Source: a virus
Strand: one strand, 5' to 3'
IMG/VR virus record: IMGVR_UViG_3300007512_000181
Location: 1 to 25,728 of that record
Length of the DNA: 25,728 nucleotides
The notes beneath the pieces were generated by a model. That model had not been told where the DNA came from and made no database searches. It saw only the letters and a program-made list of their open reading frames with translations. Each line of letters starts with the position of its first letter. The stretch's first letter is position 1. The position numbers were made by a program, and so were the translations under genes. Positions 5,315 through 25,728 of the stretch are shown in pieces.

Positions 5315-5333
5315 ATTACAAAAATTATAAATT

Positions 5334-6815: not shown

Positions 6816-6825
6816 CAACTAATTT

Positions 6826-6853
6826 AGCAGGGTGGTTCGCTACCCTGCTTTTA
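6826..6853 (+). terminator. Rho-independent terminator after the capsid gene
   Basis: The inverted repeat AGCAGGGT / ACCCTGCT is closed by a G-T and a G-C pair around a TTCG loop and is followed by TTTT. It begins 11 bases after the capsid stop codon. It probably ends most transcripts that cover the capsid gene, with some read-through into the 96-aa gene. Confidence 0.87.
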
Positions 6854-6874
6854 TAAATCTTTAAAAATAAGAAA

Positions 6875-7165
6875 ATGAATATACCTTATATAAAACTAAA
6901 AGTAGGTACAGCTTATAAACTTATCAATTGTGACAACATTTTAGATATTGAAAGAGCTAGTGCAACTACTACTACTATAGATTATTCTGCTATCGTTGGC
7001 GCTGGAAATGACTTATTAACTATAACTCACGCTACAGACGGTGGTTCTGGAGCTGGTATTGTTGAAGAGCTTTTAAACGCTGTAGTAAAGCAAGCTGAAC
7101 AATCTGAAGGTAAAGTTATTGAACTAAACCCTTCATTAGCAGTAAGCGGTATTGTTTATAGCTAA
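6875..7165 (+). CDS. Small probable virion protein (96 aa), function unknown
   Basis: This is a 96-residue protein that I do not recognise by function. It begins NIPYIKLKVGTAYKLINCDN, continues through a Thr-rich stretch (SATTTTIDYSAIVGAGNDLL, about 30-49) and ends with a helix (IVEELLNAVVKQAEQ) and a short strand. There is no signal peptide or membrane helix. It lies between two strong terminators directly after the capsid gene, so it sits in its own short transcription interval and is likely made in quantity. That context suggests a small capsid-associated or decoration protein, though this is inference. The start is the only suitable ATG after the terminator, preceded by an A-rich leader (AATAAGAAA). 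Confidence 0.6.
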   Translation: MNIPYIKLKVGTAYKLINCDNILDIERASATTTTIDYSAIVGAGNDLLTITHATDGGSGAGIVEELLNAVVKQAEQSEGKVIELNPSLAVSGIVYS

Positions 7166-7176
7166 AATAAATAATT

Positions 7177-7209
7177 AAGATCCCACTTCGGTGGGGTCTT
7201 ATTTTTTTT
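7177..7209 (+). terminator. Rho-independent terminator with TTCG tetraloop
   Basis: The arms AAGATCCCAC and GTGGGGTCTT form a ten-pair stem (one G-T pair) closed by C(TTCG)G, the classic very stable tetraloop. An A and a run of eight T follow. It lies 11 bases after the 96-aa gene and separates it from the next gene. Confidence 0.92.
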
Positions 7210-7228
7210 AATTATATTATATTATATC

Positions 7229-8005
7229 ATGGAAGAAACAAAAACAAAATCTCCTAAAGTAAAAAAAGATACTTGGGAGTACAAAGATAGATTTTACCAT
7301 TTATCACATGGTAAATCACCATTAACGTTTACTATTTCTAGTAGACATTCAAATAGAAAACCTTTACTTTATTTTGATGAAGAAAAAGGTTATAATAGAG
7401 AACTTAGATACGCAACTAATCAAAAGAGTTGTTTTGCGGATGAGCAAGTTGGGCCAGTTACGATTGGTAGGATAGTTTTTCAAGATGGCGTACTTAGAGT
7501 ACCTAAAGAAAACATTGTCTTACAAAAGATGCTATCTCTTTTTCACCCAAATAAAAACAAACTTTACTCTGAAAGAGATGAGATTGTCGTTGCTACAGAT
7601 CAGTTAGATTATTTAGAAATGGAAATGCAAGCATTAAATGCTGCTTTTGAAATGGATGTTGATCAAGCTGAGGCAATACTAAGAGTTGAACAAGGAACGA
7701 GCGTTAGTGGATTAAGTTCAAAAGAACTAAAAAGAGATTTAATATTATTTGCTAGAAGTAATCCAGAGTTATTTATTGATTTAGCTAACGATGAGAATGT
7801 AGAATTAAGGAATGTTGCTATTAAAGCAACTGAAGCGAATATAATAAGTTTATCACCTGATCAAAGAACATTTAATTGGGCAAGTAATGGTAAGAAGTTA
7901 ATGACTATACCATTTGACGAAAACCCATTTTCTGCGATGGCGGCTTTCTTCAAAACAGATGAAGGCGTAGAAGTTTTCAAGTCTATACAGAAAAAGCTCA
8001 AATAA
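7229..8005 (+). CDS. Conserved-looking phage structural-module protein (258 aa), unknown function
   Basis: This 258-residue soluble protein has no function I can assign. The N-terminus is Lys-rich (about 1-17). Residues about 18-100 look beta-rich, with KSPLTFTISSRH (29-40), YATNQKSCFADEQVG and a strand pair (TIGRIVFQDGVLRVP). Residues about 125-200 look helical and contain MDVDQAEAILRVEQG and SSKELKRDLILFARSNPELF. The C-terminus has FNWASNGKKLMTIPFDENPF, then TDEGVEVFKSIQKKLK. I have an impression of similar proteins in marine Bacteroidota phages next to the capsid gene, also without a function, but cannot verify it. A terminator lies on each side, so it forms a one-gene unit. The leader is A/T only with no Shine-Dalgarno. 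A role in head completion or as a head-tail joining factor is possible but not shown. Confidence 0.7.
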   Translation: MEETKTKSPKVKKDTWEYKDRFYHLSHGKSPLTFTISSRHSNRKPLLYFDEEKGYNRELRYATNQKSCFADEQVGPVTIGRIVFQDGVLRVPKENIVLQKMLSLFHPNKNKLYSERDEIVVATDQLDYLEMEMQALNAAFEMDVDQAEAILRVEQGTSVSGLSSKELKRDLILFARSNPELFIDLANDENVELRNVAIKATEANIISLSPDQRTFNWASNGKKLMTIPFDENPFSAMAAFFKTDEGVEVFKSIQKKLK

Positions 8006-8020
8006 TATGTGACTATATAT

Positions 8021-8049
8021 AAGGCGGCAATTACGCCGCCTTTTTTTTT
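8021..8049 (+). terminator. Rho-independent terminator, G+C-rich stem
   Basis: The arms AAGGCGGC and GCCGCCTT surround a six-base loop (AATTAC) and lead straight into nine T. The six G+C pairs stand out sharply from the A+T-rich surroundings. It lies 15 bases after the 258-aa gene and 12 bases before the next ATG, so it ends or attenuates the capsid-region transcripts before the tail genes. Confidence 0.92.
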
Positions 8050-8061
8050 AAAACTATTATT

Positions 8062-8844
8062 ATGGCAATTAGCGTAGATGACGTATATAAAACTGTATTG
8101 CTAATACTAAATAAAGAACAAAGAGGTTACATAACACCAGCCGAGTTCAATAAATTAGCTACTCAAGTTCAATTAGAAATATTTGAGAATTATTTTCAAT
8201 ATGAAAATAGACAATATCGCTTACCAGATAACGAATCTGAGTATAGTGATAGATATAAGAATGTGGATGAAAAAATTGCCATATTTAAGAAATTAAGTGA
8301 CGGGTTAGTTAAACCCGTAGGTGAAGATTATTTTGAACAACCAACAGATCTTTACAAATTAGGTACTGTTATCTATACAGATGCTAAAGGAAATCAAATA
8401 GAAGTCCAGAAATCACAACAAAACGATTTCCTATATGTTGACATGTCTCCGTTAACAAAACCCTCAGAGAAATATCCTATTTATTTATACAGGAATAACA
8501 GAATATATGTTAAGCCGAATGACAATATTTTAGATACAGAAATAAAAGTAAGTTATTTAAGGAAACCAAAAGATCCTAGATGGGGTTACAAAGTTGATGG
8601 CGGCACTGGTGGATATATTTACGATGACACTGAGTATGACCCAACTGGAATTCCACCTTATCCTGACCCTAGTATTCCTAACCCTACTTATTGGGGTTCA
8701 ACCGACTTTGAACTACACGAAACAGAGCAAACAGAGTTAATTATAAAAATACTAATGTACAGTGGTGTAGTAATACGCGATCCAAGTATAGTTCAAACCG
8801 CTGGTCAAATGGATCAACAAGAAACAGCACAGGAAAATTCATAA
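8062..8844 (+). CDS. Probable head-tail connector or ring protein (260 aa)
   Basis: This 260-residue protein begins with a helical region (SVDDVYKTVLLILNKEQRGY, residues 4-23) followed by TPAEFNKLATQVQLEIFENY (25-44). It continues through a mixed region ending in VSYLRKPKDPRWGYK (about 164-178). Next comes a Pro/Gly/Asp/Tyr-rich insertion (about 179-214) and then an acidic helix (about 216-235, ETEQTELIIKILMYSGVVIR). I associate proteins with this N-terminal pattern with the connector and tail region of Bacteroidota podophages. It is the first gene after the third terminator, and the next gene starts three bases after its stop, so the two are translationally linked and probably work together at the portal. 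The exact ring position cannot be told from sequence. The start has an ATTATG context. Confidence 0.6.
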   Translation: MAISVDDVYKTVLLILNKEQRGYITPAEFNKLATQVQLEIFENYFQYENRQYRLPDNESEYSDRYKNVDEKIAIFKKLSDGLVKPVGEDYFEQPTDLYKLGTVIYTDAKGNQIEVQKSQQNDFLYVDMSPLTKPSEKYPIYLYRNNRIYVKPNDNILDTEIKVSYLRKPKDPRWGYKVDGGTGGYIYDDTEYDPTGIPPYPDPSIPNPTYWGSTDFELHETEQTELIIKILMYSGVVIRDPSIVQTAGQMDQQETAQENS

Positions 8845-8847
8845 AAT

Positions 8848-9984
8848 ATGGGACTATTAACAGAAAATAACGCACAATATTACAATGGTCAACAAACGTT
8901 TCAAGGTGACGCTATTGTTGATAAATTTACTTGCACATTTAATACTGATCTCACAGTAGACACATCGACAACTAACGCAAACTTTGAAGCGAGTGTATTA
9001 AATATTATTACAAACGTTACAACTCCATTAGTCGAAGCTACTGATTACACCTTATTACCGGGTAATATAGTTAATTTAAATGGTCTTTATGGCGCTCCGT
9101 CTGTTCAAGAAAAATTAATAATAACTCTCACTCAACCAGCAATAAACAACAACTATGGAAGTTACGAATACATATCTCTACATGATGTTATTAATAACTT
9201 TATTGTAGCATACGTAGGTAAAGATAAGATAATACCAGATATAAAAAGAACAGATGTAATGTTTCACGCAAAGCGTGGATTACAAGAATTTAGTTACGAT
9301 ACTTTAAAGAGTATAAAATCTCAAGAATTAACAGTGCCACCTAGTTTATCAGTGGTTATACCTCAGGACTATGTTAATTATGTTAAGTGCTCTTGGGTTG
9401 ATGATGTAGGAGCTAAACACATTGTATACCCAACTAGAGTTACTTCTAATCCTACAGAGTTACCAATACAAGATGCAGCTGGTATACCAACTCAAGATTC
9501 AGTTGGAAGTAACGTGGAAGATCCTAATTCTGTAACAGAACAAAGATGGGCTGAACAAAACAATACAGCTTATGACGGTTTTGATGATTACAGATATCCT
9601 GAAGCAGAGTTTGTTTTTGGTCAAAGATACGGGTTGGAACCGGAAGAAGCTCAAATAAACGGCAAATTCACTATTAATGAGAGATTAGGTAAGATGTCTT
9701 TTAGTAGTGACCTTAATGGTAAGTTAATCATACTAGAATATATATCTGATGGTTTAGCTACAGATGAAGATATGAAAATACCTAAATTCGCTGAAGAAGC
9801 TATATACATGCATATTGCACATGCTATCTTATCCGTAAGATCAAATATACCTGAATATGTGATAAACAGATTTAAGAAGGATAGAAGAGCAGCTCTTAGA
9901 AATGCTAAAATTAGATTATCTAATATTAAGATAGAAGAAATAGCTCAAGTATTCAGGAATAAATCTAAAATAATCAAACACTAA
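8848..9984 (+). CDS. Probable tail tubular / portal-adaptor protein (378 aa)
   Basis: This 378-residue protein has two parts. Residues about 1-105 are beta-rich and Thr/Asn-rich (DKFTCTFNTDLTVDTSTTNA), perhaps an outward domain. Residues about 110-378 resemble head-proximal ring or tail-tubular proteins. That part has an N-terminal helix (HDVINNFIVAYVGKDKIIPD), then HAKRGLQEFSYDTLKSI, a strand-rich core with PQDYVNYVKCSWVDD, and a C-terminal helical arm rich in Arg and Lys (NRFKKDRRAALRNAKIRLSN). The pattern of helix, core and basic helix fits adaptor rings that bind the portal, but the fold is inferred. It starts three bases after its upstream neighbour. Its TAA overlaps the next ATG by one base (TAATG), which indicates translational coupling with the 1192-aa tail protein. 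Confidence 0.62.
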   Translation: MGLLTENNAQYYNGQQTFQGDAIVDKFTCTFNTDLTVDTSTTNANFEASVLNIITNVTTPLVEATDYTLLPGNIVNLNGLYGAPSVQEKLIITLTQPAINNNYGSYEYISLHDVINNFIVAYVGKDKIIPDIKRTDVMFHAKRGLQEFSYDTLKSIKSQELTVPPSLSVVIPQDYVNYVKCSWVDDVGAKHIVYPTRVTSNPTELPIQDAAGIPTQDSVGSNVEDPNSVTEQRWAEQNNTAYDGFDDYRYPEAEFVFGQRYGLEPEEAQINGKFTINERLGKMSFSSDLNGKLIILEYISDGLATDEDMKIPKFAEEAIYMHIAHAILSVRSNIPEYVINRFKKDRRAALRNAKIRLSNIKIEEIAQVFRNKSKIIKH

Positions 9985-12900
9985 TGCCAGAAGTTAAAAA
10001 TACCTTTCTTAAGTCTAAGATGAATAAAGACTTAGACGCTAGGATATTACCTAATGGAGAATATAGAGATGCTGAAAATGTTAATGTAAGTAAATCTGAA
10101 GGAGATGATGTTGGTTCATTAGAGAATGTTCTTAGTAATATACAAGTATCAGATATAAAAACAGATGTAGTTCAAGCGGAATTGAATTACGCGAACAGTG
10201 ACTCTACTATAGTCACTAAGCCAACTGAGACTCAAATAGAACAATCTTTATATGGTTTAGAGATAATAGGTCAGTTTATGGATGTCAAGAATAATAGGAT
10301 ATTCATAATGCTAACAAATTACACTGATACCTCAGCTAACAGACTTTCTAACTTCGCAAACCCAGATCATTATGAAGAGGTTTCTCCTGGTTCTATAAAT
10401 ACAGACTTTGTTTACAAAGGCGCTGGGTGTTATATATACATGTTAGATATAAACGGTAATACCACCTCGGTTCTCGTTGGTGGTAACTTCTTAAACTTTT
10501 CCAAAACACATAAAATATTAAACATAAACTTACTTGAGGATTTATTATTCTGGACTGACGATAGAAATCAACCAAGAAAAATAAATATTAATAGAGCTTA
10601 TAATCAACCTTTTTCATCTGGTGATCCTTACTATTACAACGAAGATCATATATCCGTAGCTAAGTTCGCGCCTGTGCTTCCTATATCATTAATCGAGGAA
10701 GTAGCTAGTAACATATGGGAAAGTACAATGCAATCTGTCACTCAAGAACATTTACCAATACATTTAATAGATACTATAAGCGTTGGTAAGGTAGTGGGTG
10801 ATATAGGTGTAGAATTAAAAAGATCCTTTAGCCTTGGAACTAATGATTCGATGATAAACGTTGGAGATAAAGTTATTATAGAGGATAACAGTGGTAATGA
10901 GTATGATCATGAAATAATAGCTGTAGTTGGAGCAAATCAATTCAACATAACTCCAGCTTTCACTGTAGACGTAGAGGTTGGGTGGACCGTTAAAGTACAA
11001 AGACCAAACCCTTTTTATGACACTAATTACATAGGCGACGAGAATGTATTAAAAGATAAATTTACTAGATTTAGTTATAGATTTAAGTATGACGATAACG
11101 AATATTCATTATTTGCCCCGTTCACTCAGGAAGTATTTATACCTAAACAATTTGGTTATTTCGTAGATGACGATGAAGAGAAAGCTGGTAAGAGTGGTAT
11201 AGTTAGTTTTATGGAAAACCTAGTTGATAAAGTTAAATTCAACATAAGACTTCCTTACGTCGGTACTAACATAGAAGATATACTAAAAGTAAAAGAAATA
11301 CAAATAGTATCTAAAGCTTCTAATGAACAAGCCGTGAAAGTTATAGAGGACATTCCAACAAGTGACTTAACAAACACTCAAGATTATATTTATGAATATA
11401 ACTCTATAAAACCATATAAAACACTTCCAGAAAACGATTTAACTAGAGTACATGATAAAGTTCCTATAAGAGCTAAGTGTCAAGAGGTTACTTCTAATAG
11501 AGTCTTGTATGGTAACTTTGTGGATAAGCATACTTCTCCGGATTTTCTAGATTATCAACTAAAAATCAACAGAAAAAACATATTAAACGTTGGACCCACA
11601 CCGAGTGATCCCACTGATGTCTTTAGTCAAGTAAGAAGAGAATATCCAACACATACTTTAAAACAAAACAGGAGTTACACTGTTGGTGTAGTTTTAGTTG
11701 ACAGATACGGTAGATCATCTAATGTTATATTATCTAAACAAAATGTTACAGTTAATTCAGATAAAGTCTCAACTATATACTCTGGTTACACTAACTTTGG
11801 AACTGACGACGTTATTGATTGGCCTGGTAATGTTTTAGAAATACAATTTAACAATCCAATAAGCAATAGCGGACCAGAAGGATATCCTGGTTTATATAGT
11901 GAAACAAATCCTCTTGGTTGGTATAGCTACAAAATAGTTGTTAAACAGCAAGAGCAAGAGTACTATAATGTTTACTTACCTGGTATATTAGCTGGTGAAA
12001 TAACTTGGACTACTACACCACTTGGTCTAAACGGAGGTAGAGATGATTATGATGTAATTGCAGGTGAAACAGCTACTAATCAACCAATGTATATAAATAG
12101 CACAAAAACTTCTTTAATATCTTTATTTGGTGATAACATAAATAAAATACCTAGAAATCTAAATGACGTAGGGGCAACTGATATAGATTTTGGTAGCAGC
12201 GTCGAGTTGTTTAATAGAGTAAATCCAAATAGTTGGGATAGCGAAATTGTTGACGCTAGCGGCGCGTTAGTTAGTGGATTACCATATAATACTCAATCAA
12301 GTGTTAATAACACTTCAGATACTATAGACTTTATAAAACCATTTAAACAACTTGGGAAATGGACGACTACTAAAGGTAATGCCTATCCAGAGCAAAATAA
12401 CGTTCTTGGAGTTCCGCCTTTTGCTGACCCTTGGTACCCGTTTACAGGTGGAATTGACGCTAGTGGAGGCAGTGCGGAAGATATTATATTCAAGGATCCA
12501 CTGTATAAATCTAATGAGAATCCATTTATAGCGAGTATATCAACTCAATTTAAAACAGGAGTAAATCCTAAGCAGTCACAGAATGCAGGTAATTATTATT
12601 ATGTTAATACAGGTGAAAATAGATTAGGTGACACTACCTTAGGTGTGTACGAAACAAATCCAGTAGAATCTTTATTAGAATTATTCTGGGAGACATCTAC
12701 GGCTGGTTTGATAGAAAATGATGGATATACGTCTGGAACTAATCAATATGAAGCTTTAAATACTCTAATTGACAATGAAACTGGAAACAATGGTCCATTT
12801 TCTTTATCTGAACTAAACTTTGATCTAAAAGAGAGTGATCCTATAGGCACATTTGTAACTGATATATTTGAGATGCTTCAATCAGATGGTAATCCCTGTA

Positions 12901-13562
12901 ATGATACTGGAAATACCATGACAATTCTAAGTGTTCTAGATGGTAATGGGAATGAAAGAAAATTTGATTTTGAATTAAAACAAAACCCTAATGGTTCTAG
13001 CGACACTCTTTGGCAGATAAAAAGTAAAAAAGAATTTGTATTTTTATCAGATGCAAATACTAGAGAAAGATATGATTTTACTTTAGAAGGCACTGCTAAT
13101 GGACAAACTAACACGTTTGGATTTAAAGGGCAATTAAGTAACGAACCACCGGTAGCTCAAGTTAATTGGCCAGATGTAAGATATAATGGAGGAAGTATTA
13201 ATCCTCCAACGTTTCCAGCAGGTGATGCTTTTGAAATAGCTGGAAGATGGGGTGGAGGTTCAGGTTCTGTTGTTATAGTTGAAGCAAATGACTTTTTTAA
13301 TGGGTCTATAGCTAATAGTGAAAATTTTAAACAATTAGTATATAGTTGTGATTTTAGAACCAATATAGAAAATCCTCCAGGGTTTTTTGTAAATTATTCT
13401 CCAAACTTTTCACTAACTACTTCATCAAATGGAAGTGTAACATTAAATCTATTAAACATTGGTTTTTTTGAAGCAGAAGCTAATTTTACTTTAAAAATAT
13501 CAGATGCTAATGGTAATGGTGATTTTATAGAAAAAGACTTTAACGTTTCTGTTAAAAACTAA
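9984..13562 (+). CDS. Large tail protein resembling crAss-like 'stabilization' (muzzle-type) protein
   Basis: This 1192-residue protein opens with a signature I associate with the large tail protein of crAss-like and related podophages: FLKSKMNKDLDARILPNGEY (8-27), then RDAENVNVSKSEGDDVGSLE. Further in, LLFWTDDRNQPRKININRAY (about 187-206) and YTVGVVLVDRYGRSSNVILS (about 565-584) fit the same family, whose members form the outer tail. Residues about 610-1000 are Asn/Gly/Ser-rich and beta-like. The last 190 residues look like one or two immunoglobulin- or cadherin-like domains (NFTLKISDANGNGDFIEKDF near the end), a common surface-binding add-on in phage tails. There is no signal peptide. The start is fixed by the TAATG overlap. 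The next gene carries what looks like the remaining part of the same family, so the two may be a split pair. The exact structural name is inferred. Confidence 0.67.
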   Translation: MPEVKNTFLKSKMNKDLDARILPNGEYRDAENVNVSKSEGDDVGSLENVLSNIQVSDIKTDVVQAELNYANSDSTIVTKPTETQIEQSLYGLEIIGQFMDVKNNRIFIMLTNYTDTSANRLSNFANPDHYEEVSPGSINTDFVYKGAGCYIYMLDINGNTTSVLVGGNFLNFSKTHKILNINLLEDLLFWTDDRNQPRKININRAYNQPFSSGDPYYYNEDHISVAKFAPVLPISLIEEVASNIWESTMQSVTQEHLPIHLIDTISVGKVVGDIGVELKRSFSLGTNDSMINVGDKVIIEDNSGNEYDHEIIAVVGANQFNITPAFTVDVEVGWTVKVQRPNPFYDTNYIGDENVLKDKFTRFSYRFKYDDNEYSLFAPFTQEVFIPKQFGYFVDDDEEKAGKSGIVSFMENLVDKVKFNIRLPYVGTNIEDILKVKEIQIVSKASNEQAVKVIEDIPTSDLTNTQDYIYEYNSIKPYKTLPENDLTRVHDKVPIRAKCQEVTSNRVLYGNFVDKHTSPDFLDYQLKINRKNILNVGPTPSDPTDVFSQVRREYPTHTLKQNRSYTVGVVLVDRYGRSSNVILSKQNVTVNSDKVSTIYSGYTNFGTDDVIDWPGNVLEIQFNNPISNSGPEGYPGLYSETNPLGWYSYKIVVKQQEQEYYNVYLPGILAGEITWTTTPLGLNGGRDDYDVIAGETATNQPMYINSTKTSLISLFGDNINKIPRNLNDVGATDIDFGSSVELFNRVNPNSWDSEIVDASGALVSGLPYNTQSSVNNTSDTIDFIKPFKQLGKWTTTKGNAYPEQNNVLGVPPFADPWYPFTGGIDASGGSAEDIIFKDPLYKSNENPFIASISTQFKTGVNPKQSQNAGNYYYVNTGENRLGDTTLGVYETNPVESLLELFWETSTAGLIENDGYTSGTNQYEALNTLIDNETGNNGPFSLSELNFDLKESDPIGTFVTDIFEMLQSDGNPCNDTGNTMTILSVLDGNGNERKFDFELKQNPNGSSDTLWQIKSKKEFVFLSDANTRERYDFTLEGTANGQTNTFGFKGQLSNEPPVAQVNWPDVRYNGGSINPPTFPAGDAFEIAGRWGGGSGSVVIVEANDFFNGSIANSENFKQLVYSCDFRTNIENPPGFFVNYSPNFSLTTSSNGSVTLNLLNIGFFEAEANFTLKISDANGNGDFIEKDFNVSVKN

Positions 13563-13567
13563 ATATT

Positions 13568-15319
13568 ATGGCAGCTAGATTACAAATAAAATATTTTAAT
13601 TCATTTTGGTTGAAGAGAGCTTTGAATGGTAGGTTTGATTCTTCTGGAGATGAAAACACTGATATTCCATCTACGGTTGTAACTGGTATAGAGGCGTCTG
13701 GGTATAAACCAACTTGGCCTGGTGATCCAAATTACACTGGGTCTGATTACCCTTCGTTTGGAGCTGACGTATACACTGGCACTGACAGTATAGATAGAAA
13801 TTGGATTATTGAAGAATCTAGAATTAGAGGTGGTTATAATAACACATCGACTAGTTACGGCGCTAAGGCTTATTTAAAAGAAGATAAAAACGAACAATCA
13901 AGGTTAGATAGTAAACTAATCTACTCAGGTATCTATAACTCAACCACTTCATTTAATGAGACTAATGTTTTCTCAGTAGCCGATAATATCACTAAAGCTT
14001 TAGATCCAGCTTACGGATCTATACAGAGAATGTTTGCTGAAGATGCTAACATGATAATATTCCAAGAAAATAAAGTTAGCAATGTTTTAGTTGACAAAGA
14101 CGCTATATACTCAGCTGAGGGTGGTGGAACTGTCACCTCAACTAATTTAGTACTTGGGCAAATAACACCTTATTTAGGTGAATTTGGCATAAGTAAGAAT
14201 CCAGAGAGTTTCGCGTATTTTGGATTCAGAAAATACTTTGTAGATAGGTATCGAAATGTTGTTTTAAGGCTGTCTAGAGACGGTATTACTGAAATTTCAC
14301 AATATGGTATGGGGGATTATTTTAGAGACAGTCTAAAGCAGATTTCTGATGATTGGCAAAATTACACATCTTCTTATACTATAGTTACTTCTAGTGTAAC
14401 TTCCCCGTATTCTATAACATTAGACACGGTTGGTGAAGATTTAGATATAGGTATGCAAGTGGCTATTCAACAGAGTGGATCCCCTAAAGTTGTTAACGCT
14501 ATAGTCGTAGGTATGGATAGGAATGTAGTTTATATAAACATCGATCCAAAAAGTCCAGATTTAAACGAGAAGGTTGTCTTCACTAAGTTCGTGAAAGATC
14601 AAATAACAGGTGGATATGATACTTATGATGATTTCTACAAGTTATCGATGCAGAAAGTTTTATTAAATAAAGATAATCCAGAGGTGTTTTTACCATTTGA
14701 TCAAACTAAAATAATAGAAAGTGTAACTTACAATGGTAATACACAAACATTAGCATTTGACGAAAGTGTAAAAGGTTGGACGAGTTTCTATACTTATAGA
14801 CCTCTTTTTATGGATAGTTTAAGGAATAACTATTATACGTTTAAAACATCAGAGGTTTGGAGACACCATGACGAGACTAGTAATAATAGAACAACTTTCT
14901 ACGGTACTCAAAGCGATTCTAATATAACATTTATATTTAACGCTAATCCTTCTATAATGAAAAACTTTAACACTATAAATTATGAAGGTAATAATGGTTG
15001 GGAGATTGATTCAATAGAATCAGACTTAGAAAGTGGTATTCAAGATATTGCGAAAACAGTAAAAAGCTATGAAGAAGGTAAATATACCGATGGAGGTGTG
15101 ACTTATAACTCTGGGTTTGATCGCAAGGAAAATAGATATGTAGCTAACTTAGTTAATAACAGTCAGCAAAAGATTGGTGAAGTTGTTTTTGGAGATCAAA
15201 TGAGTGGAATTAAAGGTTACTATGTAACAGTAAAAATGTCGTTAGACACAACTACAGATCCAGGTGGAATGAAAGAATTATTCGCAGTTTCATCTAATTT
15301 TGTAGTATCATCATATTAA
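13568..15319 (+). CDS. Tail protein, probable partner of the 1192-aa stabilization-like protein
   Basis: This 583-residue protein starts five bases after the large tail protein, in a different frame. Residues about 70-100 contain SIDRNWIIEESRIRGGYNNT. Then come YSGIYNSTTSFNETNVFSVA (about 118-137), DPAYGSIQRMFAEDANMIIF (about 144-163) and ISKNPESFAYFGFRKYFVDR (about 205-224). The order of beta-strand segments with EDANMIIFQENKV and VVLRLSRDGITEIS resembles the C-terminal half of stabilization (muzzle-type) proteins in crAss-like phages. Such proteins often have a beta-propeller-like centre, but I infer that fold only from the repeated strand patterns. No membrane segment is seen. It probably assembles with the preceding protein at the tail tip. 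A receptor-binding role is possible but unproven. The start context is ATTATG. Confidence 0.63.
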   Translation: MAARLQIKYFNSFWLKRALNGRFDSSGDENTDIPSTVVTGIEASGYKPTWPGDPNYTGSDYPSFGADVYTGTDSIDRNWIIEESRIRGGYNNTSTSYGAKAYLKEDKNEQSRLDSKLIYSGIYNSTTSFNETNVFSVADNITKALDPAYGSIQRMFAEDANMIIFQENKVSNVLVDKDAIYSAEGGGTVTSTNLVLGQITPYLGEFGISKNPESFAYFGFRKYFVDRYRNVVLRLSRDGITEISQYGMGDYFRDSLKQISDDWQNYTSSYTIVTSSVTSPYSITLDTVGEDLDIGMQVAIQQSGSPKVVNAIVVGMDRNVVYINIDPKSPDLNEKVVFTKFVKDQITGGYDTYDDFYKLSMQKVLLNKDNPEVFLPFDQTKIIESVTYNGNTQTLAFDESVKGWTSFYTYRPLFMDSLRNNYYTFKTSEVWRHHDETSNNRTTFYGTQSDSNITFIFNANPSIMKNFNTINYEGNNGWEIDSIESDLESGIQDIAKTVKSYEEGKYTDGGVTYNSGFDRKENRYVANLVNNSQQKIGEVVFGDQMSGIKGYYVTVKMSLDTTTDPGGMKELFAVSSNFVVSSY

Positions 15320-15330
15320 AATAAAAAATT

Positions 15331-16044
15331 ATGAGTAACAGTTCTAAAATAGCAATGTGGTCAATGGGTGTAAGTGCTGGAACTTCAGCTGTTACTGCAG
15401 CGTGGGCACTAGGTAAAGCAAATCAAGCTAAAAATAATGCTAATACGTTAAAGCTGAGTCTGGAAGATATGGAGAAAAACAGACAATCTGTCATTAATCC
15501 ATACGCTAACATATCCAATGCTTATGAAAATATAGGTGTTGCTACTAAAGCAGCTGAGTTTGAAGCTGAGCAAATAGATATATCGTTAGCAAATACTTTA
15601 GATGCCGTTAAACAAACTGGAGCTGGTGGTGCAACCGCTTTAGCTCAAGCAGCGTTAAAAAGTAAACAAGGTATTTCAGCTGATATACAGAAACAAGAAC
15701 AAGCTAATCAGCAATTAAGAGCTAAAGGTGCTATGGATGTTCAGAAACTTAAAGCTGCTGGAGAAGAATGGAAGTGGACACAGCAAGAAGATAGAGAAAT
15801 GCAGCAATTAGATAGAATGCAAAATGAAATTGATCAAGAGAGAATGAATCAAATGCAATATAGGACAGCGGGTTTTGGAGCATTAACTGACATGGCTAGT
15901 AATTTAGCTTCATTCGCTGGCATGGGTAGTGAAGATAACAATTCTAATGATACTATGTCTTATTATGACTGGTCGGCAAAACAAGAATCAGCAGGATTCA
16001 CAGGAACAAGAGAAGATTACGACTCTTATGTAGAGAGTCTTTAA
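15331..16044 (+). CDS. Probable internal virion (ejection) protein, small
   Basis: This 237-residue protein starts with an Ala/Gly-rich, weakly hydrophobic segment (WSMGVSAGTSAVTAAWALGK, 10-29). A long helical stretch rich in Ala, Gln and Lys follows. In it are GAGGATALAQAALKSKQGIS (about 97-116) and a heptad-like region up to WTQQEDREMQQLDRMQNEID (about 149-168). A second Ala/Gly/Met-rich patch, GALTDMASNLASFAGMG, sits near 183-199. This composition is typical of small internal virion proteins such as T7 gp14 or P22-type ejection proteins, which can insert into the host membrane and help form the DNA channel. It is the first of three such genes and lies 11 bases after the tail gene. The assignment is by composition and context; there is no sequence-level proof. 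Confidence 0.6.
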   Translation: MSNSSKIAMWSMGVSAGTSAVTAAWALGKANQAKNNANTLKLSLEDMEKNRQSVINPYANISNAYENIGVATKAAEFEAEQIDISLANTLDAVKQTGAGGATALAQAALKSKQGISADIQKQEQANQQLRAKGAMDVQKLKAAGEEWKWTQQEDREMQQLDRMQNEIDQERMNQMQYRTAGFGALTDMASNLASFAGMGSEDNNSNDTMSYYDWSAKQESAGFTGTREDYDSYVESL

Positions 16045-16056
16045 TAGTAAGTAATT

Positions 16057-17166
16057 ATGAGTTATAGACAACCAAAGATAATAAAAGATACTAGCGTAGA
16101 AGCATTAAGGTCTGGTGCTACTAAGATAGCCGAAACAGGACTTAAAGCCGCCACCGAGGCTAAGAAGCAAGAGGAGTTACAAAAGATAAAACAACAAACT
16201 CTTAATGAATCATTATATGGTTTAGATTTAGATGTTTCTGCTTTACCTACAGCAGCTGATGATCAATTTGATGACGCTTTTAAATCTATGATGAATACTG
16301 AATTAGAAAGAATACACAAATTAGGTGCTGAAGCTTTAAGAACTGGAGACAACTCTACATACTTGAAAGAAAAAGCGAAGTTTGCGGCTATGGTTAAAAA
16401 AGCTCCAGCTCTGATTCAAATGATACAATCACAGGCAAAGCAAGTAAGGGAGAATGGTCCTAACCTGTTGAATGATACAAATATGAACGATCCTATGTTT
16501 TTAGAAGCTCTACGTAATTGGGATATTAAGAATGGAAAAGATATAACGCCTAGATATGTAGACGGCGAATTAATATTAGAGTTTAAAGAGGATGATAAAA
16601 CTGATCCTATTAGTAAAAGCGTAACTCCAGGAAAAGTATTTAATATAAATACAGGTAATAATTTTCAAAACGTAGAAAACGGTGGTGGATTACAATACTT
16701 GAATGTGGAACAAGTTGATAGTGGTCTTAAAAAATTCTTTGACGCAAATACTCCAACAGATTATGAAGGAACAAAATCTTCAACAAAAAAAGCTATAGAA
16801 AAAGATGATAAAAATTTAATCACACAAAATGTTGGAACTTCTTATAGAAGACAAAATGACGAACTAAGAGAAAACTTTAAAAAGCCAAAAGAAGGTTTAG
16901 ATCCATTAGATCGATATATGAACCAACAAAGCTGGCAAAGATTTGGTTTTGAAGGAGCTTGGTCTGATGCTACTGAAGAACAAAAAAAAGAACTTAGAAA
17001 AAAAATAGTTGACTTTATGATGAACACTTATGCTCACGATGATTGGGTTCAAGCTAGTTATGCTGAAGCACCAGCTGACGAAAAAATCGATGCTAGCAAT
17101 GCTTATATAAACAACACTAATGAAGGTGAAGATTGGACCATGTACCCAAGCGATAAAAAACGATAA
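16057..17166 (+). CDS. Probable internal virion (ejection) protein, medium
   Basis: This 369-residue soluble protein is rich in Lys, Asp, Glu and Asn. The first 50 residues are helical and charged (ATKIAETGLKAATEAKKQEE, about 21-40). A long helical segment extends to about 135 (TELERIHKLGAEALRTGDNS and APALIQMIQSQAKQVRENG), a mixed region follows, and the end is acidic (NAYINNTNEGEDWTMYPSDK). No catalytic motif or membrane helix is visible, and I do not recognise a specific family. It lies between the small ejection-like gene and the giant gene, and its stop is immediately followed by the giant gene's ATG with no spacer, so both are probably made from one message and assembled together. By position it parallels T7 gp15. 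The alternative is a tail-associated accessory protein. Confidence 0.55.
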   Translation: MSYRQPKIIKDTSVEALRSGATKIAETGLKAATEAKKQEELQKIKQQTLNESLYGLDLDVSALPTAADDQFDDAFKSMMNTELERIHKLGAEALRTGDNSTYLKEKAKFAAMVKKAPALIQMIQSQAKQVRENGPNLLNDTNMNDPMFLEALRNWDIKNGKDITPRYVDGELILEFKEDDKTDPISKSVTPGKVFNINTGNNFQNVENGGGLQYLNVEQVDSGLKKFFDANTPTDYEGTKSSTKKAIEKDDKNLITQNVGTSYRRQNDELRENFKKPKEGLDPLDRYMNQQSWQRFGFEGAWSDATEEQKKELRKKIVDFMMNTYAHDDWVQASYAEAPADEKIDASNAYINNTNEGEDWTMYPSDKKR

Positions 17167-20100
17167 ATGGACGAAAAATATATAAATATAATATACGATA
17201 TACTTTCTAATGATAAAAACTTTGTTAAAAATTCACCTGTAAGTGAGTTTGTAAACAAAATAAAAGATGAAGAGTACGCTAGAAATGTATATGATATAAT
17301 ATCTAATTGGGATCCTAATTTCTCGGAAAATACTAATTATGATCAATTTTTAATTAAAGTTGGCGCTTCTGAAACTGTTTCTACTTCTTCTCCTGGGAAA
17401 AACATGTTCATGAAAATGCGTGAAGATATGAATAAAAAATTCATACAAGAGCAAGAAGATAGAAGAGAAAATATACTAAAATTATCTGAATCAGAAACAA
17501 TAACAGATCAAAATGTTCTAATAACAGAAATGTCTAAACTCAGTCCTGAAGAGTTAAAAAAGAAAGAAGAAGAGGTTACATTAGAAAAATATTATGATTA
17601 CGAACGTGAAGTTGGTAGACTACAGGATAGAGATGATAAAGAGTCACCTTATTATGATTATTATCAAAAGATAAAAGAAGTACAAGGTTCTCCTGAAGAT
17701 TCTAAAATTACTGAAAACGAAGAACGTAAAAAGCTCAAAGAATCTATTATATTAGAACGAGGTTTTTCTAAAGAATTAGCTGACAAGTTATATAAAACTT
17801 TTTCCACTGAAGATTTATATGTAGAGAGTAGTAAATACGAAAGTAAAAGTGAAAAGATTTATAGAGATGCTTATGAAGATTTAGGTATAACTCCAAATCA
17901 ACTAGAGTGGGTATTAAAGCAAGAGGACGACGCGTGGATGCAGAAGGCTAATATATCAGAAGAAGGAAAGAAAATATTAAATACGTTTCTTGAAAAAGGG
18001 ATATCAGGAATTCCTAAAGGAGACCTAACCGACGCTCGTTTTTTTAAAGTTATGGAGAAAAAAATTAAAGAAACAAAAGAAAAATTAGGGAAAAATGTAG
18101 TTTCTAATAGGGCTAAATATGAAAGAGAATATGGATTATATGAAAAGAAAAAAACTTCTACGTTTAAAAACATATCAGATAATGAAATAGTAAAAGCTCA
18201 CGACGAAGATGAGTTGTATTATTTACACTGGTTTGACGATGAAGAGGAATTAATAACAAAAGGTTTAGAGGGTGGCTTATTAGAGTTAGCTAGTTACTAT
18301 AAGGAAGACGTAAAAAACAAAAAGAAAGAAAGAAAATCTAAAGAAGATAGTAAGCTTAAAACTGTTTGGGTAAATGATAATAGAGGTAAAGTAGAAGAAT
18401 ACGTCGATAATCTTGTTAGCGGACTAGAGAATAGAAATAGTTATGAAAGTGTTTTTTATCCCGGCGCAGACATTTCCCCGTGGAAAACTAAAGAAGATTT
18501 AGTTAACGATATATTAGAATTTGAATATTTAAAAAATGAATCTAATGTAATAAAAGATTACATAGGTGCGAGAAAATCTAAAAACCTAAATGAATATCAA
18601 AAGAAAATATTAAGTTTAGTTGATGGAGAAAGTAAAGTTAGTTGGTTAACTATGATGTATGATGGTGTTGGGGTGGATGTTGATTTTGTTTTTGATGAAA
18701 ATTCAACCATTGAGTTAGACAAAGATTTTAAAACATTGTCTTACAACATGGGTGATCCGGGTATAAAGGAAAATATTAAAACTAAATATCCTGAATTAAC
18801 ACCCGAAGAAATACAAGAAATAGCTAGAGACACTTATTTGATAGAGCAACAAAACAAGTTAAGTGAAATAAACAACGAATCGCTAGATAAGTATATCTCT
18901 GATTTTTATGGGATGGAAAAAGATATAGTTAGGGAAGCTAAAAGTGGTTATTTAACTAAAACTTTATTAAATAAACTAATAGATGATGATGTTTTCTTTG
19001 AAAGCACTTCTAGCACAACACCGGAAAATATAAGAGAAGATCTTGAGAGAAAATTATCACCTTGGGGTTATAGAGTTTATTTGAGTAGATTAGTAGATGC
19101 AGCTGAAACCTCCTTCCTTAGCACAAAAAGCCAACAATCTGGAGTCACTATAAAAGTAATTGCGCCTGATGGCATGGGTGAGTTTGAAGCTCCAGTACTA
19201 CAACAAGGTTTTGGTGGTGCTTTGTATATTAATAATGAAGATTATATTAGTAATGAGAAAAACGGTGTAAACTTTAAAGACTTTATAGCTAAAACTAGTG
19301 GTGGTAGGAAATTTAATTTAGCAAATATAGCTGATATAAAACCAAGTGATAGTTTATTTGCCACTCAACTCAAAACTAATGATCAAACATTAAGAACATC
19401 TATATATAGTCAAAATGCTTTAAAAAATAGGATAGAGGATGCTCAAAATAACTTAGATAGAGTTTCTAATCAAATGCTTCAAAATGTTTCTAATGAAGCT
19501 ATGAATATCGACTACTCTCCAATACTTGACATGTATAATATAAATACCACTGAATTTGAATCTACAAAGCAAAGTATAAACAATCAAATAGAAAAAATAA
19601 TACAATCAGGAGGTGGAAATGAAATATCTTCTATTCAAGATATTATAAATTCGTCTTTACAAGGTTTTATAGAAGGCAAACTTAAAACTAAAAGATATTC
19701 TGAAGATCAGTTAGCGAGTATCAAACAAAACAGTAATCAAGTTTTTGCTAACGTTTTTAATCAATTAGATAATTCCCTAAAAAATTCGTCTGAAACAATA
19801 AACGCTATGTCTAATGAAATTAGATATATGCAGGCTTTAGATACTAAGGCTAGTGAAGATTATTCATTAGCTTTAGCTGCTAAATATAGAAAAGATGCTA
19901 AAATGGGTACTAAACTTGGATCACTGTGGAACTCGTTTGTTAATGGTGCTGAAGCTACTTTTACAGGTATGGTATCTACAGGCTTAGATATAGCTACTTT
20001 AGCTTCTACTCCTTTTGTAGCTATTGAAGCTGCTGGGAAAAAGAAAAAAGTTTATGACGAAGAAACTGGTGAGTGGACTACTCAGGATGTAACATTCGCT

Positions 20101-23100
20101 GAAGAATGGGATGGCTTAAGTAAATCTGCCAAAGCACAAACACTACCTTTTTTAAGATCTTTCTCTGATGAGTTTGGAGTAGGAACTACAGATGAGTATT
20201 CAGCACAATGGGCTGAAGATAGTTTTTGGGGATTAGCTCTTCAAGGATTAGCGGGATCTGCGTTACCAATGGTTATGAGTATGTATACTGGTGGTGTAGC
20301 TGGTGTTCCTATGTTTTTTGGACAAGCTGTTGAATTTCAAGATCAAGAAATAATAAAAGCTCAAGAAAGAGGTTTACTACCTAAAGACATGAGTGAGTTG
20401 GAAAAATGGGCTACAAAAGCACCTATGGCAGTTATGATGGCTATATTAGAAAACTATGGTGCTAGATCATTCTTAACTAAAGGACATGTAGATAAAACGA
20501 ATCCGTTTCTAGTTGATTTATGTAGAAAAACGTTGAAAAAGTTACCTAAAAACTCAAGTTATGGCACTTTTTTAAAAGCTATAGATAAATCTTTAAGTAA
20601 CTCTTTCGCCAGAGGTAGTTTAAGATTAGCTGAAGGTTTTTTAAGTGAGTTTGAAACAGGGTTTGCCCAACACATGTCAGATGAAGCTATTAAGGAAATA
20701 TATGATATATTTAAAAGTGGAGATCAATCTGATATATTTACTACTAGTTTGCAAGAAGGTGTATTACCATTTATGAAGCAAGCTTTTATATCAGGTTTAG
20801 CTGAAGGTGTTGGGGGTGCGAAAATAGGTTTAATAGGTGGAATTCAGACAGGTATACAATACAACAAGTATGGTGAGTCTTTAAGTGATAGTCAATATGA
20901 ACTCATGGAAGCTATTGTTCAAGGTGCTCCAAGTAGGCAAGATTATATCAATATTTTGAATAATAGATTAAAAACTGATAAGAAGTATACTAAACAACAA
21001 TATAAGCAGGATTTAAGAAGATATGATATTGCTGAAAACACTATAAGTCAAATACCAAATTCAGTTACAGATTATGCTGATAGAAGGAAGATGTTTGATT
21101 TGATCAATGAAAAAAGAGCTGTAAATCAGCAAATAAAAGATAAAGATTCTTTATTTAATTCTGGAAAGAAAAATAGAATTAAAGAGATAGACGCGGAAAT
21201 GGAATCCATAAGAGAGTTTGGTAGTAAAACTGAATCTAAAATGTTTAACGCTGAAAGTAATCCAAATATATCAGCATACAACGCTAATAACAAAAGTAGA
21301 AAAAGAGTTGAACTAAATAGAATAATAAACAAAATACAGTCACACGAGAGTGGATTAGAGAAGTTAAGTCAAAGTGAAATAAATGATTTAATAAGTGAAG
21401 TAGAAGCTTTGCAAAAGACATTTAAGAAGGCAGATAATAAAATAACTAGAAAAGCTGCTGGAGAACTTCAAACAATCGTAAACAACTTAAAATCAGGCAT
21501 TACATCTAACACAATATCAATGAACCAAAAAATGGATCAAGCTACTCAAGAAAAGCTTTCCAACGAAAACATTGGTATGTATGGTAATAATAATAGAGAA
21601 ACTTACATTATCGATGATGAAGTTATACCTAGGAGAGAATTTGAAGAAAAACTAAAAAATCCTGAGTTTGTAGAAAAAGTAATGTCAGGAGAAATTTCTT
21701 ATTCTGTAGTAAACGCCTCTAGTAACACTGTCAATAATTTAAAAAAGCAATTTCCACAGTCTACATCTAAAGAAAAACCAGGGTATAAAATATATAAAGA
21801 TGGCACAGTACACTTAAATAAAGCGTCATTATCTGTTGCTAAAAACATAACTTTAGCTAAAAAAATAGCTAAAAAGATGGGTATTAATTTTGAAGTGTTA
21901 AATACAAAAGAATACGCGTTGGTTTTAATGAGTAAGGGTTATGATATTTCCAACACAGATGGTGGGTTGGATTTAGAAAAAGTCAATGCTTCTGAAGGGT
22001 TTTTTGCAGATGAAGATGGTGAGTTTGGTACTATATATATAAATGAAGCTACAATGCGTAGAAACACGTCGGTAGGTTCACACGAGTTATTACATGGTAT
22101 ATTCAAGAAAGCTTTAACTGATGGTGCTATAGTAACAGAGAATGGAATGAATGCCATCAATGAATTTAAAGATATTCTAAAAGAAGAAGGTAATTGGGAT
22201 ATTATTCAAGAAAGAATAGATCAAAACTATAGATTTGAAAACTTCGGAGGAGAAGGGTTGACTAAAGAGGAGTTTAATGAATGGAAAAAACAAAGTTTTC
22301 CAGGTGGAACAATAAATGGAAATCATATAGTAGAAGATAGCGTAAAACTAAACAGTAAAGGAAACGTTATTAGGGTAGAAAAGAATGAGAATACTTATGC
22401 TGATGAGTATTTAAATGCGTTTTCCGATGCTGTTGTTCAAAAAGAAATTAAATACAAGAAATCTATATTCGACAAGATATTAGACTGGTTTAAAAAGATT
22501 GGTGGTAATAAAGTATTTGAACAAGTTGATATAGAAAATGGTCGACAACTTTACGATTACGTTTTAGGTTATAGTGAACAATTCAAAGATATAGATGGTG
22601 ACATATTATTAGAAGAAGGTGATATAACTCCAGAGGTTAAAGTTAGTGAAGTAACTGAACCTGTTAAGAAAGTTGAGAAATTAAAAGAAAAAGCTAAAGA
22701 AGAAGTTGAAGAGGTTGAAGAAGAAAAAGTAAGTGAAGGTGGGGAGTCGTTAATAGAAATGATGAGTGTTGATGAGGGTGTTCAAGAGCGAGGTGGAGAA
22801 GATGTATCTCAAGAAGTTGAAGAAGAAGTGATAGAAAGTGAATTTCCTCTTCCACCTGAAAAAATAACATGGCCTAAAATTAAAGCTGGTATTCCTGATG
22901 GAAAAGGTGGAACTTTACAAACAACTGGAAAAACTGGGAATTATAAATTGATTAGAACTGATCAGGATGGCAAACCGGAGATCCTAGGGACGTTTAATAC
23001 ATTAGATGGGTCTATTGCAAGGGCTAATGAATATATCGGTTTAAAACCAATTAAAAAGACAACTGAAGAAAAAGTTGTTAAAGTTAAAGGTCAAAATGAT

Positions 23101-25443
23101 ATTGAAAAAAGTTTAAAAGGAGATATTAAGTTTGCTAATAAAGTTGTAAAAGAACTAGATAGACTCGAAAGTATAAAAGCCAGTGACGGTAATATGCTGT
23201 GGTATAATATTTTCGCTGGTGAAAAAGTTACTTTAGAGGGAATAGGGACGTTTAGTAAAGCTGATTTGACTGTTGATGCTATAAAAAGGATTAAAGAATA
23301 TGCGGTTGAAAAAGGGTGGATGAAAACTTTAAAACCGGGTGATAATATTAGAAAATCAATAAGTAAACCTGTTGATCCATCTATTAAAATTAGTGATTTA
23401 AGGTTTTCTAGGTCTACATCTAAAGATAGAAGAGTAGAGTACAAAAAGCAAAACAGAAACAACAAGGTAATATCTAAGTATAATGAAGATATAGTATACG
23501 AAATAATTAAAGAGTACGAGAGTTTAGTTGGTATACCAAAGCTTGACCAAATTATAGAAGGCAACATCCAGAAATTAAAAGGAGAGTTATATAACAACAA
23601 CATCGGAAGAATAACTATTGAAGCTAAAAAAGCTTATGATAAAGGTTTTGCTGTAGATCCTACTACTAGGATAACTATAGAAGAATTCATGTCTGGATTT
23701 TCTGTAGAATTTAATGAACTCATAAGAACCTATTTAAACAAAGTTTTAGATGGGCAACATCGTAATGTTCCTTTCGGCGCATATATTGCTGACAATTTAC
23801 CTAGAAGATACGGGCAGATATTAGATGCTCTCAAAAAGCAATTTGAAGGTGCTCAACTTACTGGAACTACAGAAGTAGCCGCTGAAAAAAGAGATTTAGC
23901 TGCAATAGAAGAAGATGTAGTAGTAGATAAAATAGAGAAGAGTTTAAGAAAAGAATTAGGTTTAGATGATGAGTTTAGAAATAGAGTTTTAGATAAAGTT
24001 AAAGCTATATTTAAAGGTAAGTTACCACACCCAAGTTCACCTGAGTTTAAGGCTAAATTAGAGAAAGAATTCGAGACAGCGCTGTTTGATGTTATTAGAG
24101 AAGATCTATTTGGCGCTAAGTTTAATGAAGAGAAGAATAGGTATATGTATGACTGGGGATTGATTCAAGAGAGACTTGATCAATACGCTGAGATTATATA
24201 TGATAAACTACCTATACAGACTTTAGTATCTCTAAATAGAACCACATGGAAGAAAGGTGAATTAATAATGAAGCCAGTTATTGATTCTAAGACTGGTGAG
24301 CAAAAAAGAATGCTACCTGAAGAATCTGATAGATCGAGAGAATTATTTGGTTATGAAGTTAAAGACAGAGAAGCTGGTAATTTAGTTTGGACTAAGCAAA
24401 ATTCTTCTGAAATAAAAGATGATTTTATAAACTTCTTCTTGAACCCAATAGTTAGTAGAAAAGCAATGAGGATGGAAGGATTGTTTAAAGTTCTCGCTAA
24501 AGAGATAGCTTTCGATGCTACTATGGAAACTGTTAATAATCCTGAAGTATATGAAAGAATGCAAGATCTTTACGAACTTCAAGGAATTAACCTACTTGGT
24601 AATGAACTAGAAGTTATAGCTAAAGAGATAAATCGTTCTCCTGGGTTGAGGTTTAGTAAAGCAAAAGAAGAATCTTTAAATATATCAATTGAAGCAATTA
24701 ATGAAGCTGCTAAGAAAACTTATAAGGGAGTTAGATTTAGTATAAGTGAGTTGATAAGAGATTTAGGTGAGATTACTAGTGATTTAATAAACGGTAAAAC
24801 GACTTTTGAAAAACTATTGAAAAGTAAAGATAAAACAAAGATTTTGTTTTTGAATATATATAGTGATTTTGATCCTACTGCTTTTATTAAACAAACTTCT
24901 GTAATGTTCAAAACGTTAGCGAAAAAAGCTGCATTAATTAGCGATAATCCATTTGTAAAAAAATACAGTGAAACTGCTAATAGCAATACAGTCGATCCAA
25001 AAACTAGAAGTAATTTCTTAACGTCATTAATTAATAATTTGCCAGTTTCAATTAAGACTGCAATTTCAAAAAACTTTTCAAGTAAAGGATTAAGAAACTT
25101 TATAGGTGCCGCTGAATCCTCTACGAAACAATGGAGATCTCTAGATGCTAGAATTAAACAAGAAGTTTCTACAGAATCTAAATTAAGTGAAAAAGCTATT
25201 AAAGCTAAGAAAAAGAAAGATTCCTTAAAGAGAACAAAAGAAAACACAGAGAGATCTTTACGAAGACTTCTAAATGGAGCAAAGCAATATGGTCACGCGT
25301 TTATTCAACACGAGGATAGAATATATGCTCTTCCCTCCGATAATGGTGAGTATAAACATTCTGACGGAACTGTAAATGAAATTAGTTTCTACGAAAATAG
25401 TTCTACCGAAAAGAAGATATATACGGATTTAAGAAAACACTAA
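17167..25443 (+). CDS. Giant polyvalent internal virion protein with zincin metallopeptidase motif
   Basis: This 2758-residue protein is probably packaged in the head and injected with the DNA. Residues 1-67 hold two tandem copies of a short motif (IYDILSNDKNF... and VYDIISNWDPNF...). Residues 70-600 are charged and helical. Residues 636-700 are beta-like. About 936-958, 1019-1052 and 1199-1225 are hydrophobic and Gly/Ala-rich, possibly membrane-active. Residues about 1545-1810 form a zincin-like domain with HELLH at 1639-1643 and a candidate third ligand E1747 in DEYLNAF. An acidic low-complexity linker covers about 1815-1895. A small beta domain (about 1895-1960) and a helical region follow. 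RFS motifs lie at 2079-2081, 2495-2497 and 2523-2525. Zincin domains inside giant phage proteins fit the known polyvalent-protein theme. The frame reaches TAA at 25441 and then remains open to the window edge, so the true protein may be longer. The HELLH function is inferred. Confidence 0.78.
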   Translation: MDEKYINIIYDILSNDKNFVKNSPVSEFVNKIKDEEYARNVYDIISNWDPNFSENTNYDQFLIKVGASETVSTSSPGKNMFMKMREDMNKKFIQEQEDRRENILKLSESETITDQNVLITEMSKLSPEELKKKEEEVTLEKYYDYEREVGRLQDRDDKESPYYDYYQKIKEVQGSPEDSKITENEERKKLKESIILERGFSKELADKLYKTFSTEDLYVESSKYESKSEKIYRDAYEDLGITPNQLEWVLKQEDDAWMQKANISEEGKKILNTFLEKGISGIPKGDLTDARFFKVMEKKIKETKEKLGKNVVSNRAKYEREYGLYEKKKTSTFKNISDNEIVKAHDEDELYYLHWFDDEEELITKGLEGGLLELASYYKEDVKNKKKERKSKEDSKLKTVWVNDNRGKVEEYVDNLVSGLENRNSYESVFYPGADISPWKTKEDLVNDILEFEYLKNESNVIKDYIGARKSKNLNEYQKKILSLVDGESKVSWLTMMYDGVGVDVDFVFDENSTIELDKDFKTLSYNMGDPGIKENIKTKYPELTPEEIQEIARDTYLIEQQNKLSEINNESLDKYISDFYGMEKDIVREAKSGYLTKTLLNKLIDDDVFFESTSSTTPENIREDLERKLSPWGYRVYLSRLVDAAETSFLSTKSQQSGVTIKVIAPDGMGEFEAPVLQQGFGGALYINNEDYISNEKNGVNFKDFIAKTSGGRKFNLANIADIKPSDSLFATQLKTNDQTLRTSIYSQNALKNRIEDAQNNLDRVSNQMLQNVSNEAMNIDYSPILDMYNINTTEFESTKQSINNQIEKIIQSGGGNEISSIQDIINSSLQGFIEGKLKTKRYSEDQLASIKQNSNQVFANVFNQLDNSLKNSSETINAMSNEIRYMQALDTKASEDYSLALAAKYRKDAKMGTKLGSLWNSFVNGAEATFTGMVSTGLDIATLASTPFVAIEAAGKKKKVYDEETGEWTTQDVTFAEEWDGLSKSAKAQTLPFLRSFSDEFGVGTTDEYSAQWAEDSFWGLALQGLAGSALPMVMSMYTGGVAGVPMFFGQAVEFQDQEIIKAQERGLLPKDMSELEKWATKAPMAVMMAILENYGARSFLTKGHVDKTNPFLVDLCRKTLKKLPKNSSYGTFLKAIDKSLSNSFARGSLRLAEGFLSEFETGFAQHMSDEAIKEIYDIFKSGDQSDIFTTSLQEGVLPFMKQAFISGLAEGVGGAKIGLIGGIQTGIQYNKYGESLSDSQYELMEAIVQGAPSRQDYINILNNRLKTDKKYTKQQYKQDLRRYDIAENTISQIPNSVTDYADRRKMFDLINEKRAVNQQIKDKDSLFNSGKKNRIKEIDAEMESIREFGSKTESKMFNAESNPNISAYNANNKSRKRVELNRIINKIQSHESGLEKLSQSEINDLISEVEALQKTFKKADNKITRKAAGELQTIVNNLKSGITSNTISMNQKMDQATQEKLSNENIGMYGNNNRETYIIDDEVIPRREFEEKLKNPEFVEKVMSGEISYSVVNASSNTVNNLKKQFPQSTSKEKPGYKIYKDGTVHLNKASLSVAKNITLAKKIAKKMGINFEVLNTKEYALVLMSKGYDISNTDGGLDLEKVNASEGFFADEDGEFGTIYINEATMRRNTSVGSHELLHGIFKKALTDGAIVTENGMNAINEFKDILKEEGNWDIIQERIDQNYRFENFGGEGLTKEEFNEWKKQSFPGGTINGNHIVEDSVKLNSKGNVIRVEKNENTYADEYLNAFSDAVVQKEIKYKKSIFDKILDWFKKIGGNKVFEQVDIENGRQLYDYVLGYSEQFKDIDGDILLEEGDITPEVKVSEVTEPVKKVEKLKEKAKEEVEEVEEEKVSEGGESLIEMMSVDEGVQERGGEDVSQEVEEEVIESEFPLPPEKITWPKIKAGIPDGKGGTLQTTGKTGNYKLIRTDQDGKPEILGTFNTLDGSIARANEYIGLKPIKKTTEEKVVKVKGQNDIEKSLKGDIKFANKVVKELDRLESIKASDGNMLWYNIFAGEKVTLEGIGTFSKADLTVDAIKRIKEYAVEKGWMKTLKPGDNIRKSISKPVDPSIKISDLRFSRSTSKDRRVEYKKQNRNNKVISKYNEDIVYEIIKEYESLVGIPKLDQIIEGNIQKLKGELYNNNIGRITIEAKKAYDKGFAVDPTTRITIEEFMSGFSVEFNELIRTYLNKVLDGQHRNVPFGAYIADNLPRRYGQILDALKKQFEGAQLTGTTEVAAEKRDLAAIEEDVVVDKIEKSLRKELGLDDEFRNRVLDKVKAIFKGKLPHPSSPEFKAKLEKEFETALFDVIREDLFGAKFNEEKNRYMYDWGLIQERLDQYAEIIYDKLPIQTLVSLNRTTWKKGELIMKPVIDSKTGEQKRMLPEESDRSRELFGYEVKDREAGNLVWTKQNSSEIKDDFINFFLNPIVSRKAMRMEGLFKVLAKEIAFDATMETVNNPEVYERMQDLYELQGINLLGNELEVIAKEINRSPGLRFSKAKEESLNISIEAINEAAKKTYKGVRFSISELIRDLGEITSDLINGKTTFEKLLKSKDKTKILFLNIYSDFDPTAFIKQTSVMFKTLAKKAALISDNPFVKKYSETANSNTVDPKTRSNFLTSLINNLPVSIKTAISKNFSSKGLRNFIGAAESSTKQWRSLDARIKQEVSTESKLSEKAIKAKKKKDSLKRTKENTERSLRRLLNGAKQYGHAFIQHEDRIYALPSDNGEYKHSDGTVNEISFYENSSTEKKIYTDLRKH

Positions 25444-25728
25444 GAAAAAGCTGTTAGTAAAACTAGGTCAGTTTTAGAAAAAGATAATATAACAGATACT
25501 GACATAAAAGAAGTTTCTAAACTCTGGGATACGTTTCAAGAAGCATTTAATAAAGCTGAGGAGCACTTCAAAGAAAATAAACCGGCAGAACATATAAATA
25601 ACAAAAGATTTAGACAGAGAAGTAAAATAACTCTTCCATTTAAAACTAGTGGTGCTGCTTTAGCTAGAGATCATAATAGAGCGATAGTTAACACTAAGGT
25701 AAATGAAAGAATATTAGAATTAAAAACA
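25444..25728 (+). CDS. Open continuation of the giant gene after an in-frame TAA, 3'-partial, no start codon
   Basis: From 25444 to the window edge the frame of the giant gene stays open for 95 codons, with no stop and no ATG. It begins EKAVSKTRSVLEKDNITDTD and contains KFKTSG-like basic, helical text later (LPFKTSGAALARDHNRAIVN). The codon use (AGA, GCT, AAA, TTA) matches the upstream part. The other two forward frames offer no gene either: the only ATG here, near 25698, hits TAG after four codons. The stretch therefore looks like the tail of the giant protein, cut off by one nonsense codon (TAA is one base from CAA, GAA or AAA), by a sequence or assembly error, or reached by stop read-through. 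It could also be a separate gene with a non-ATG start. Everything beyond 25728 is unseen. Confidence 0.45.

Follow-up and report, generated by a model that had tools for sequence, protein, structure and literature searches.

A described counterpart of the gene considered here is gp101 of Cellulophaga phage phi38:1 (Pervagoviridae, Callevirus), a protein of 1691 aa annotated as "structural protein", whose gene is likewise the last of a terminase-portal-capsid block; the terminase and another structural gene of this phage are homologous to those of the DNA we analyzed. Giant last genes of the structural module also occur in IMG/VR relatives (such as L149, L128, and L134), where they occupy the same place after the same structural genes and share with our gene a collinear middle block and the form of a very long single ORF. 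They run, however, stop-free into a C-terminal module of ~870 aa, whereas the DNA studied here has an in-frame TAA and ends before that module. In-frame stops in prokaryotic genes have been traced to annotation artefacts, sequencing errors, pseudogenes, and functional genes with a premature stop (PMC7918605). Those stops resemble the present one in lying within an otherwise intact coding frame, but they were counted only if found in two or more genomes, a rule meant to exclude errors, whereas ours is known from one contig.

The DNA examined (hereafter the window) is an IMG/VR virus record of 25,728 bases from an uncultured marine-type phage. Its giant gene (Table 1) follows genes assigned by PHROGs to terminase, portal, and several virion structural proteins, and both its position and the gene order are the same in the relatives and in phi38:1. 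A first-pass annotation had described the gene as coding for a "polyvalent virion protein", which is partly borne out, insofar as it is syntenic with the gene of the structural protein gp101; the C-terminal module of the family, on the other hand, has no detectable homology to gp101, and because of this we infer the virion role from gene position, which makes it probable that the giant protein belongs to the virion or is injected. A tblastn search of annotated phage records with the giant protein of the window returned no match. An identity as a crAss-like virion RNA polymerase was rejected, as the relatives do not conserve the DIDGD motif found at residue 1808. Beyond L149, parts of the middle block also align with L128, L129, L033, and L036. 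All 12 remaining genes of the window terminate in TAA and are separated by gaps of -1 to 63 nt, while the TAA of the giant gene is followed neither by an ATG-started gene after 25443 nor by a terminator-like site in 25300-25728, just as the first-pass annotation had stated. The preference for TAA extends to nearly all genes in window positions 2-25443 and is equally strong in close relatives (L142).

Table 1. Features of the giant gene and of its interruption in the window.
Feature	Position	Strand	Basis or character	Context
Giant gene, 5' part	17167..25443	+	ORF, ATG start, 2758 aa	Last gene of the terminase-portal-capsid structural module
Middle block, residues about 2149-2691	23611..25239	+	Collinear with L149 residues 1232-1727, 27% identity, blastp E 2e-37	
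In-frame TAA (codon 2759)	25441..25443	+	Premature relative to the family	Variable linker; 285 bases short of the contig end
Open tail, 95 codons, no ATG/GTG/TTG	25444..25728	+	Codon score, GC by codon position	

Giant-gene loci of relatives were located through a conserved structural gene together with a capsid-type gene and then lengthened to take in the giant gene, which in most of them is a single ORF of about 2,400-3,860 aa at the same position. Its C terminus is highly conserved, with about 60% identity across roughly 870 residues among three relatives. This module opens with an HAD-phosphatase-like motif (VFDFDDTLA), which is followed by a helical region; its profile matches, to HAD and polynucleotide-kinase, are both weak, and neither a search of solved structures nor tblastn against 50,697 annotated phage records turned up a match to it. 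Modeled with AlphaFold (mean pLDDT 66), the module shows an alpha/beta domain and, after it, long helices. A search with an HMM built from the last ~250 residues matched 23 of the giant-gene loci located in this way with E <= 4e-65, and the window, searched in every frame, gave nothing significant (best E 1.1); some other contigs, which are fragments (G020, G021, G023, G030, and G035), were without any module match. In IMG/VR the module is common, with at least 358 relatives confirmed among at least 599 candidates, and examples lie at L134:11383-13974, at L128:10695-13307, and in loci L143-L222. Other recognizable domains occur elsewhere in these proteins: residues 2325-2464 of the L129 giant protein, near the C-terminal module, form a P-loop kinase domain (AAA_33, E 3.9e-12; zeta-toxin-like), and HExxH-type metalloprotease-like motifs (HEITH, HELTH) are present in the N-terminal half, in the first ORF of L033 (1252-4938) and in the giant ORF of L141 (4445-8131).

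A scan with the C-terminal module yielded 80 further loci in 78 clusters, comprising 238,897 codons. Since this set was selected by the module, any break farther upstream would have entered the count. In all 80 loci the module and at least 1452 upstream residues lie in one uninterrupted ORF, and an in-frame stop between gene start and module occurs in none; full lengths range from 2331 to 3864 aa (median 2946), and the giant-gene ATG follows closely on the in-frame stop before it (median 2.5 codons, maximum 26). Homologs ending at the TAA of the window, which had been named as the observation that would speak against an interruption, were thus looked for and found in 0 of 80. The best-matching giant relative that we found, L149, continues past the point matching window residue 2691 for ~1,170 residues more without a stop, and its module begins about 300 residues beyond that point. 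The module is missing from the window as expected, because the contig ends only 162 codons past residue 2691; because the window lacks it, the giant gene most likely continues past base 25728. The TAA itself sits 68 residues beyond the last detectable homology. These findings support the claim that the TAA interrupts a continuing gene. When L149 and L171 are aligned with the window by profile, the result is unreliable beyond about residue 2691, and a 16-sequence global alignment of whole giants, which forced the termini together, was left out of the placement of the stop.

The region 25444-25728 is very probably coding DNA in the frame of the giant gene, because its codon-use score lies at the coding median, its GC content by codon position matches, and its open run is long. 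True coding stretches as long as the tail have a median score of 0.40 (95% range 0.23-0.57), and the tail itself scores 0.429, far above the 97.5th percentile of wrong-frame stretches (0.025), while GC by codon position is 0.40/0.34/0.16 in the tail and 0.42/0.31/0.20 in the giant gene. The 95 open codons are a lower limit, the frame being cut by the contig end; from base composition they have a chance of (1-0.0845)^95 = 2.3e-4, and just one of 2018 stop-to-stop runs in the wrong plus-strand frames of the window genes reaches this length. Both the similarity in codon use and the improbability of such a run by chance, noted in the first pass, are hereby confirmed. Furthermore, the five other frames of the tail carry 2-21 stops, and a gene in another frame with its own start spanning the tail, the second observation that would have spoken against an interruption, was looked for and not found. 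Peptide-pattern searches of viral contigs with the tail, with the 116, and with the 500 residues before the stop, a search of GTDB genomes with the tail pattern, and tblastn of the tail plus the last 500 residues against annotated phages found no relative, and the exact DNA pattern over the stop, with the first codon base left free, matched no other contig. Because no relative was found that aligns through 25240-25728, continuity across the TAA is drawn from codon use and family architecture. Most likely, the tail continues the linker of the giant gene, with the C-terminal module expected beyond the contig end.

We regard it as highly probable that the TAA is premature and stems from a single-base change, which either happened recently in the phage as a real nonsense mutation or reflects an assembly error or minor variant. 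According to this explanation, the intact giant gene would be one ORF, probably of about 3,800-3,900 codons, that runs past the right end of the contig and closes with the conserved HAD-phosphatase-like and helical module, and the TAA would have arisen in the variable linker ahead of it, either through a wrong base or minority variant entering the assembly close to the contig end or through a recent real nonsense mutation in the phage genome. The former, a base error or minor variant, is slightly favored over a real mutation and is a good possibility, if somewhat short of probable; the latter is a serious but more tentative one. We further infer that the module follows the TAA in the window's own genome and that the change at 25441 is a recent substitution. 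About 5.7% of all single substitutions in the giant gene create a stop.

Other giant genes, too, have isolated breaks of a kind that errors or mutations produce, namely a frame change at the module start in L136, a frame change at a poly-A in L141, and two N gaps in L033; as natural splits these loci were rejected, the breaks being apparent one-base frame changes in L136 and L141 and N gaps in L033. As for the phage itself, the sister contigs L026 and L027 agree with the window at every one of 10,155 bases (3568-13722). Upstream of that stretch, both carry differences in the portal gene (3128 and 3141), and L026 carries others in the terminase gene (47, 56, and 80), all of these changes altering residues; L026 also differs silently at 289 and 307. 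The differences at 3128, 3141, 47, 56, and 80 therefore indicate that assemblies of this phage do contain base errors or variants. At most of the residue-changing positions the family consensus sides with the window, and the clustered differences are probable base errors in the L026 and L027 records. These probable errors lie in other assemblies, and the changes go to G or C, not towards a stop. The two sister contigs carry different IMG/VR sample numbers and both end exactly at window position 13722, the last 15-21 bases before which are unique within the window; 13723-25728 is covered by one contig only.

Of the four causes offered in the first-pass annotation, nonsense mutation and sequence error remain, while gene split and stop read-through are without positive support. 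A real split would give two separate chains, with translation of the second beginning past the TAA, at a non-standard start codon or beyond the contig end, and a variable linker between two conserved blocks would be the least harmful place for it. Such a split, which had been suggested as possibly in progress, is nevertheless quite unlikely, as none of the 80 module-bearing relatives offers a precedent and the tail provides no downstream start, with ATG, GTG, and TTG absent throughout and ATA the only candidate. Moreover, a spacer that spans 285 nt or more and has perfect coding codon use does not resemble the gaps of the structural module, and if non-coding it would be out of character because gaps between window genes reach at most 63 nt. 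Contig ends are prone to misjoins, and no homolog of the tail was found in viral contigs, GTDB genomes, or annotated phages, so that the gene might truly end at the TAA, the last 285 bases belonging either to foreign DNA joined on in a chimeric contig or to another arrangement that begins there. This we hold to be extremely improbable: the tail shares strand and frame with the giant gene, which would happen about once in six by chance, its GC by codon position is the same, and the genes of relatives continue there, so that ending at the TAA would lose the most conserved part of the family.

Occasional passage of ribosomes through the TAA, giving a short and a long protein form, would account for the open and coding-like frame beyond it, and prokaryotic in-frame stops beyond which constraint is retained have been described, phage and mobile genes showing an excess of them (PMC7918605). 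Read-through is very improbable here all the same, since a stop is conserved at the 25441 position in none of the 80 relatives, TAA is the normal stop of all 12 neighboring genes, and RNA folding downstream of the stop is no stronger than in shuffled sequences (z -0.11); neither the window nor the parts of the sister contigs examined contain a tRNA gene, and thus no suppressor tRNA reading TAA was found in them. A code in which TAA is reassigned is excluded in practice, as TAA ends the 12 neighbors and no other in-frame stop occurs. It is likewise highly unlikely that the TAA is fixed and functional, the 2758-aa protein being accompanied by a minor read-through or separately initiated module product in a virion ratio set by termination. 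The interruption is real and was read correctly, and its cause is ordinary: one long gene, known in this state from a single contig, carries a premature stop. It does not need a new kind of gene expression and is most simply explained by a recent nonsense change or a sequence error.

The finding is chiefly a caution, as a gene caller would list a complete 2758-aa protein with no sign that the best-conserved portion is missing from it. In metagenome contigs, genes as long as these giants (8-12 kb) offer much room for frame breaks, N gaps, and erroneous single bases, all of which distort tallies of gene splits and pseudogenes. If the stop is real, translation would halt at residue 2758 and the product would lose the most conserved part of the protein; if it is both real and fixed, it raises the question of whether the conserved C-terminal module is dispensable.
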